This document shows, in pieces, positions 46,840-47,958 of a stretch of DNA of 64,000 nucleotides. Made by a program: the position numbers and the translations under genes. Origin of the DNA: Gammaproteobacteria bacterium (GTDB lineage: Bacteria; Pseudomonadota; Gammaproteobacteria; AKS1); NCBI GenBank assembly GCA_027006175.1, contig JALTKS010000110.1, positions 35,517 to 99,516 of the forward strand, read 5' to 3'. The notes beneath the pieces are model-generated. The model saw nothing but the letters and a program-made list of their open reading frames with translations, was not told where the DNA came from and did not search any database. How positions within the stretch are numbered: the stretch's first letter is position 1; every line of letters starts with the position of its first letter.

Positions 46840-46869
46840 TTGACAGTTATCGAAGCAAAGGCGCAGAAT
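46840..46869 (+). promoter_or_regulatory. Strong promoter of the EamA leader
   Basis: Perfect TTGACA (46840-46845) and CAGAAT (46864-46869) are separated by 18 bases. A GC-only discriminator (GCGCGC, 46870-46875) follows, as in stringently controlled stable-RNA promoters. The predicted start is at or next to 46876. Confidence 0.8.
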
Positions 46870-46875
46870 GCGCGC

Positions 46876-46959
46876 ATGTTAAATATCAAACAACACATTT
46901 GTGTGATTAAGTTGCATCGAGCACCCTGCTGGATGCAGTTTTTTCCGTGTGTTTTGTAG
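46876..46959 (+). CDS. Possible 27-residue leader peptide (leaderless)
   Basis: An ATG lies exactly where transcription is expected to start, followed by 27 codons and TAG (46957-46959). The peptide contains three cysteines (codons 9, 18 and 25) and a Cys-Trp pair in HRAPCWMQ. There is no room for a ribosome site, so it would be a leaderless message. It ends inside the antiterminator segment (46942-46957), the position needed for ribosome-controlled attenuation. It may instead be a chance frame within a structured RNA. Confidence 0.35.
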   Translation: MLNIKQHICVIKLHRAPCWMQFFPCVL

Positions 46960-47002
46960 GTTAAGATGATAAAAAGTTAAAGTGACACAAAACAATATCC
47001 TG

Positions 47003-47040
47003 AAAAGGCCACGGAAACTAAACAGTCCGTGGCCTTTTTT
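47003..47040 (+). terminator. Intrinsic terminator just before the EamA ribosome site
   Basis: GGCCACGGA (47007-47015) and TCCGTGGCC (47026-47034) form a perfect 9-bp stem extended by AAAA/TTTT, followed by TTTTTT. The ribosome site (AGAGGAG) of the EamA gene starts 16 bases later. It is a strong terminator and the OFF state of the proposed switch, or the end of a separate small RNA. Confidence 0.92.
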
Positions 47041-47070
47041 ATTACGACCGTAAACAGAGGAGTAAAAATC

Positions 47071-47958
47071 ATGTCGGTCCCTGCAGCGTATCTTGCAGTC
47101 ATTGTTATTTGGTCAACTACACCGCTTGCAATTAAGTGGAGCAGTGAAGGCCCGAGTTTTATTGCGGGTGTGACAAGTCGAATGATTATTGGAACGGTTA
47201 TCTGTCTGGTATTAGTAAAGCTACTTCGCGTTGCGATGCCATGGCATCGTCAGGCGGTGTACGCTTATATAGCAGGATCATTGGCTGTCTTTGCAGGAAT
47301 GCTAAGTGTGTATTGGGGTGCTCAGTTTATTGAGTCAGGTTTAGTCGCATTGCTATTTGGTTTAACGCCACTAGCGATAACCGTTATCTCTGTGTCAATG
47401 GGTACCGAGTCACGACCAGGACTATTTAAGCTAATGGGTATTCTGATTGCTTTGAGTGGTTTATTTTGTATCGTGCTATTAGGCGGCGAAGCAGGCCATA
47501 TAACCGAACAGAGTCTATACGGTATGTTGGCAGTCTTTATGGGTATGTTAATGCACTCAGTGAGTACCGTATGGGTAAAACAGCTTGGTCAACAGATGTC
47601 TGCATTGGCAATGACGACAGGTAGTTTATTATTTTCGATGCCATTGTATTTAATCGTCTGGTATTTTGCAGATGGCACAATACCTGATCATGTACCGATG
47701 CACGCTATTGGTTCGATAATTTATCTCGGTATTTTTGGTTCAGTACTTGGGTATGTATTTTATTTTTATACATTAAGACATGTTAGTGCGACCAATGTTG
47801 GCTTGATTACTTTGATAACACCGGTAACGGCATTATTAATCGGGCAAGCTATGAACGGTGAGAATGTCACGGGTATTGTCTGGTTTGGGACAAGTCTGAT
47901 TATTTTAGGTTTGAGCATGCATCAATGGGAACAGCGGCGAAGACTGAAAGCAGCCTGA
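47071..47958 (+). CDS. EamA-family (DMT superfamily) transporter
   Basis: A 295-residue inner-membrane protein with ten predicted helices in two repeated EamA halves (LAVIVIWSTTPLAIKWSSEGP, IGSIIYLGIFGSVLGYVFYFYTL). Family members move amino acids, other metabolites or drug-like molecules; the E. coli namesake exports cysteine and O-acetylserine. The substrate cannot be told here. An in-frame upstream start inside the terminator (47029) is rejected, because ATG 47071 has a good ribosome site. Expression is probably governed by the leader at 46876-47040. Confidence 0.88.
   Translation: MSVPAAYLAVIVIWSTTPLAIKWSSEGPSFIAGVTSRMIIGTVICLVLVKLLRVAMPWHRQAVYAYIAGSLAVFAGMLSVYWGAQFIESGLVALLFGLTPLAITVISVSMGTESRPGLFKLMGILIALSGLFCIVLLGGEAGHITEQSLYGMLAVFMGMLMHSVSTVWVKQLGQQMSALAMTTGSLLFSMPLYLIVWYFADGTIPDHVPMHAIGSIIYLGIFGSVLGYVFYFYTLRHVSATNVGLITLITPVTALLIGQAMNGENVTGIVWFGTSLIILGLSMHQWEQRRRLKAA

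Follow-up and report, generated by a model that had tools for sequence, protein, structure and literature searches.

The EamA-family transporter gene at positions 47071 to 47958 of the window (the whole 64,000-nucleotide stretch of gammaproteobacterial DNA analyzed here, to whose forward strand all window positions refer) lies behind an intrinsic transcriptional terminator. The TTGACA promoter, complementary blocks, perfect terminator and ribosome-binding site that an earlier note on this DNA had listed ahead of the gene were all confirmed in the sequence, as was the gap of 16 nt between the end of the terminator and AGAGGAG (47056-47062), the ribosome-binding site. A consensus scan placed the −35 box TTGACA, which also opens the homologous leaders, at 46840-46845, and the −10 box CAGAAT 18 nt past it at 46864-46869, 6 nt ahead of an ATG. 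The terminator (47004-47040) has arms at 47004-47015 and 47026-47037 that form a perfect 12-bp stem (−19.6 kcal/mol for 47004-47037), followed by a T run to 47040. Translation from the ATG at 47071 gives a transporter of 295 amino acids (MSVPAAYLAV...) in the DMT superfamily, matching Pfam PF00892 with 115 bits.

Two adjacent 8-base blocks, TTTCCGTG and TGTTTTGT, together form an antiterminator strand at 46942-46957 (segment 2). The first (46942-46949) is exactly complementary to CACGGAAA (47010-47017), which overlaps the left arm of the terminator (segment 3), and the second (46950-46957) to ACAAAACA (46987-46994), which lies outside the terminator. When the terminator was kept fixed and positions 46876-47003 were shuffled with dinucleotides preserved, the double block was reproduced in none of 20,000 shuffles, and even one 8-base complement of the left arm arose in just 30 of 5,000. 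The folding energy of the window leader corresponded to a z score of −6.2. The earlier note had read the two blocks as one 16-bp helix excluding the terminator. This holds for the first block, which competes with the terminator, but not for the second, which is compatible with it and occurs alongside it in a single minimum-energy fold.

Overlooked in that note were a reading frame at 46876-46959, its Trp codon and its probably leaderless start. The frame, MLNIKQHICVIKLHRAPCWMQFFPCVL, comprises 27 codons and ends with the stop codon TAG at 46957-46959; it contains a hairpin in its middle and the antiterminator strand within its last codons. Since the ATG at 46876 is only 6 nt past the −10 box, promoter geometry suggests that transcription should begin at the A of this ATG or adjacent to it and that the transcript is probably leaderless. 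Among 118 homologous leaders, this gap was 6 nt in 43, 7 nt in 61, 8 nt in 10 and 9 nt in 4, and hence 6 to 7 nt in 104. A Shine-Dalgarno-like 4-mer preceded the leader frame in 3 of 121 cases, against 129 of 161 for the EamA start. The spacing and the missing Shine-Dalgarno motif thus both fit a leaderless start, as judged from sequence alone.

To define how widely this arrangement occurs, EamA orthologs were taken from relatives, from the class and from named genomes, their upstream regions were read, and 161 distinct upstream regions were scored with a fixed score that combined the promoter, an ATG 4 to 9 nt behind it and a frame of 22 to 40 codons. The layout was found in 121 of the 161 regions, compared with 4 of the shuffled regions and none of the reverse complements. 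It commonly runs TTGACA, 17 to 18 nt, a CAGACT-like box, 6 to 7 nt, ATG, 23 to 37 codons (the range in the 121 leaders), stop codon, about 27 nt, a GGCC-type terminator and EamA. The terminator could be located by script in 118 of the 121 leaders, at a median of 27 nt past the stop codon and usually with an arm of the GGCC[A/G]CAG type. Further leaders could be recognized by eye among orthologs missed by the script (for example, L007, L025, L045, L086, L108 and L110). Cultured carriers of the leader include Thiorhodococcus mannitoliphagus DSM 18266 (L110) and Imhoffiella purpurea (L096). According to the taxonomy tables of the relatives and the class, leader-bearing genomes span at least 43 family groups. 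More than 120 proteobacterial genomes carry a predicted switch of the same layout, in different letters, ahead of this gene. In this family the −35 box is usually a perfect TTGACA, whereas the −10 box departs strongly from TATAAT and often reads CAGACT or CACACT.

A search for the promoter and ATG motif in 369 genomes returned 15 matches, 9 of them at EamA loci and one an orphan leader, and no second class of gene. The orphan (L214; G037:C1 around 401571, minus strand) is a second leader copy without an EamA gene, in which TTGACA, 17 nt, CAGACT, 6 nt and ATG are followed by the frame MNNLKPMALRMRFMLRLRGVNTVLCVLGKG, which has no Trp codon, and then by the terminator GGCCGCAGATC. The sole EamA ortholog of this family in that genome sits elsewhere and has its own leader.

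Pairing between the leader and the terminator is kept along with the layout. Against dinucleotide shuffles, excess complementarity to the left arm was seen for the part of the frame that begins 9 nt past the start of the Trp codon and ends at the stop codon (mean z, −1.6; 43% of leaders at p < 0.05), but not for the part before the Trp codon (mean z, −0.1). When the right arm was treated as not yet made, the left arm paired with the post-Trp strand in 91 of 92 leaders, and leaders matched their own terminator arms better than other leaders did. The variable A or G of the arm covaried with T or C in the antiterminator (A-T, 14; A-C, 2; G-C, 14; G-T, 5; odds, 19.6; p = 5e-4). The earlier note had proposed a transcription attenuator with an exclusive terminator and antiterminator, and had named the loss of the complementary blocks from homologous leaders as the result that would speak against it. 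The blocks are kept in those leaders with different letters, and the attenuator is strongly supported.

An in-frame Trp codon was present in 113 of the 121 frames, most often at codons 17 to 20, and TGG occurred in the other two frames of 61 and 25 leaders. At codons 17 to 21, TGG was in frame in 79 leaders, compared with 27 and 2 for the other frames. In the window the Trp codon is codon 19 (46930-46932), just past the apical loop of the hairpin formed by the frame. When the position of the antiterminator was defined without reference to Trp, 40 of 81 leaders had a Trp codon 9 to 18 nt ahead of it, whereas permutation gave an expectation of 24.5 (p = 2e-4); the median distance was 15 nt. The window leader has exactly 12 nt, matching the expected reach of a ribosome whose A site holds the Trp codon, as given by the established footprint size of the ribosome.

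Folding of the leader frame gave a hairpin (46890-46957; hairpin 1:2) in which 46890-46898 pair with 46949-46957 and 46909-46923 with 46927-46941. Across 88 leaders, 25.0 pairs crossed the apex, compared with 15.5 when codons were shuffled inside each half (Wilcoxon p = 4e-15). The center of the hairpin loop usually fell between −10 and 0 nt relative to the Trp codon. Of the antiterminator-strand bases, 71% were paired within the frame's own hairpin. The antiterminator strand as defined, taken alone against the upstream half, showed no excess pairing (z, −0.15), and the hairpin appears only when the whole frame is folded. Double changes in the 1:2 pairs of closely related leaders were in no excess over slid controls; the exact pairs therefore drift, and hairpin 1:2 rests on the energy and codon-shuffle tests. 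The earlier note had left open whether a hairpin here was controlled by a ligand or by the ribosome. As the stem at 46909-46941 is the apex of the leader frame with the Trp codon at its tip, the ribosome is favored over an aptamer.

The observed parts, their conservation, the exclusive pairings and the place of the Trp codon, as given by the sequences and statistics above, lead us to regard the leader as probably a ribosome-mediated transcription attenuator of the trp-operon type, in which EamA would be turned on when a ribosome stalls at the Trp codon. RNA polymerase would start at or beside the A of the leader ATG, and a 70S ribosome would load on the 5′ end at once. Segments 1 and 2 would be the first and second halves of the leader frame, and segments 3 and 4 the left and right arms of the terminator. 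Without translation, 1:2 would pair, the terminator 3:4 would form and EamA would be off. Unhindered translation would have the same outcome, with the ribosome covering segment 2. A ribosome that stalled while its A site held the apical Trp codon would cover segment 1 and leave segment 2 free from about 12 nt downstream; segment 2 could then pair with segment 3, block the terminator and allow EamA to be transcribed. The signal would be a shortage of Trp-tRNA-Trp. In the window, the whole antiterminator strand would lie under a ribosome halted at the stop codon; in many homologs such a ribosome would reach no more than the 3′ end of the strand. Because cover would be partial there, smooth translation may act by timing rather than by full cover in homologs whose antiterminator ends 15 to 20 nt before the stop codon.

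This arrangement resembles that of the enterobacterial trpL leader, with its three alternative hairpins 1:2, 2:3 and 3:4 and a Trp codon whose position lets a stalled ribosome release segment 2. Enterobacterial trpL has its own Shine-Dalgarno site, a 14-amino-acid peptide with two adjacent Trp codons, and a segment 2 that lies largely behind the stop codon, whereas segment 2 of the leaders described here lies inside the frame. The nearest system is the leaderless trpL of Sinorhizobium meliloti, whose transcript begins with the leader ATG and which carries a Trp codon and an exclusive terminator and antiterminator (PMC7298713); the leaders ahead of EamA share the last two features and, probably, the ATG start. 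Common to both, the peptide sequence is not conserved between species apart from Trp (PMC7298713). In S. meliloti and its relatives, trpL controls trpE(G) and encodes a peptide of 14 to 19 amino acids, with two or three Trp codons in a row (PMC7298713). The leaders studied here differ in having 23 to 37 codons, usually with a lone Trp codon at the tip of a hairpin as long as the frame; they precede a transporter gene and occur in Gammaproteobacteria in the broad sense. Thus, a short frame upstream of the gene, with translation predicted from sequence, an excluding antiterminator, a placed regulatory codon and a hairpin 1:2 competing with 2:3 were all found, as in trp-type attenuators, and the consecutive Trp run upstream of trpE that marks the S. 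meliloti type was not.

Several points count against a trp-type reading, among them the lack of excess double changes in hairpin 1:2 and the partial cover at the stop codon in many homologs noted above. Most leaders have a single Trp codon (one in 76 of the 121 leaders, two in 34), whereas known Trp attenuators have runs, and 8 leaders have none. Among EamA-family transporters whose function is known, exporters predominate, a poor match to a gene induced when Trp is scarce, and the genome's own trpE was found to have no leader of this kind. One of the 8 Trp-less leaders, L018, differs at that codon from its close relative L156, in which Trp is present. An unlikely but broader reading would make these leaders a distinct attenuator class of at least 43 families, in which one leaderless frame both carries the ribosome and folds into the regulatory hairpin, with one sensing codon at the tip. 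The real input would then not be amino-acid shortage alone but also how 70S ribosomes load onto leaderless messages, and translation capacity and Trp-tRNA would be read together.

It is similarly doubtful, though worth weighing, that the leader responds to any slowing or inhibition of translation, such as that caused by ribosome-targeting drugs or overall stress, rather than to tryptophan, and that EamA is an efflux pump. A ribosome halted anywhere near the apex would free the antiterminator, the frames are Arg-rich near the apex, and both the single Trp codon and the frequent exporters among EamA relatives would suit this explanation. However, in the same permutation test on 81 leaders, none of the other 19 amino acids, Arg included, was tied to the antiterminator position comparably to Trp, and the host genomes listed, mostly those of environmental or symbiotic proteobacteria, give no hint of a resistance setting. 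In favor of general sensing, a regulatory upstream open reading frame that senses several antibiotic classes is known (PMC12121999).

Far less probable is an arrest peptide like TnaC, in which free tryptophan bound at the nascent chain would stall the ribosome at the stop codon and alter termination. The leaders resemble TnaC and other arrest-peptide leaders in having a short frame with an important Trp, and in many the stop codon follows about 12 to 17 codons after it. Unlike those leaders, they have an intrinsic terminator and no conserved peptide, and the distance from Trp to the antiterminator is kept more tightly than that to the stop codon (scatter, 4.4 versus 8.9 nt). Comparison of the homologous frames revealed no conserved peptide positions besides Trp, and the peptide is weakly constrained (pN/pS, 0.66), as would be expected if RNA pairing and one stall codon are what is kept. 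An arrest peptide was rejected for want of conserved sequence around Trp or at the C terminus. Marginally less probable again is that an independent small RNA, or a trans-acting leader peptide, ends at the terminator and that EamA is expressed by steady read-through. The attenuator RNA and peptide of S. meliloti trpL both act in trans (PMC7298713), and the L214 genome has its second leader copy without an EamA gene; against this, the leader stands ahead of EamA in most orthologs, and conservation of the antiterminator would serve no purpose in an independent RNA. Least probable of all is a ligand-binding riboswitch with an incidental reading frame, which would account for the mutually exclusive terminator and antiterminator and for the stable hairpin at 46909-46941, but not for the conserved in-frame Trp and probably leaderless ATG. 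It was rejected, as Rfam 15 gave nothing at gathering score in the window or eight homologous loci (sub-threshold matches only, such as Thr_leader and His_leader), in agreement with the earlier note, which had matched no known class. The homologs examined also showed neither a shared loop nor a shared core sequence, and the half before the Trp codon had no structure of its own (z, +0.67).

If a ribosome-mediated attenuator of the trp type is accepted, it also bears on what the transporter carries. A NCBIfam search reached no equivalog cutoff, the nearest models being 2A78 (amino-acid/amine transporter), YedA and YddG, all below cutoff, and a search of solved structures with the EamA profile gave no match. 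In six Betaproteobacteria in which the leader is missing (L044, L061, L070, L089, L095 and L111), EamA lies directly behind an apparent type II chorismate mutase gene; two of these loci match Pfam CM_2, and the other four were read by eye. Chorismate mutase is an enzyme of the aromatic pathway, and the EamA family includes amino-acid transporters. The Trp codon and the chorismate mutase neighbor would thus point independently to aromatic amino acids. If the gene is turned on by stalling at a Trp codon, its product would most likely carry tryptophan or aromatic amino acids, and uptake seems more likely than export, since induction by Trp shortage suits uptake better.

The switch appears not to have been described before. 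A literature search, with most subscription journals outside its scope, returned no paper joining EamA (old name, DUF6) with leader-peptide attenuation, and Naville and Gautheret (2010) mention neither name. The family is probably unlabeled in Rfam because layout, codon position and complementarity are kept rather than sequence, and, as the sequence itself is not conserved, similar switches may hide before other genes. The leader would assign a regulatory signal, putatively tryptophan, to a widespread transporter family and so allow a direct test of cargo. It is also a broadly distributed example, in Gammaproteobacteria, of a leader frame that is probably leaderless, with a compact design in which the reading frame itself is the competing hairpin.

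Some individual loci depart from the common arrangement. In L011, L034, L039 and L040, the terminator hairpin is intact and the T run is short and broken (TTTG(T/C)CGTTTT), so termination in this group may be weak or lost. The EamA ortholog of L134 (G114:C20:86173-87027) contains one in-frame TGA, and its leader is intact. L093 (3001-3837 and upstream) lies on a contig labeled Pontiellaceae, which is not proteobacterial, and carries an EamA ortholog behind a leader of the same layout with no Trp codon, a case of either transfer or misbinning.
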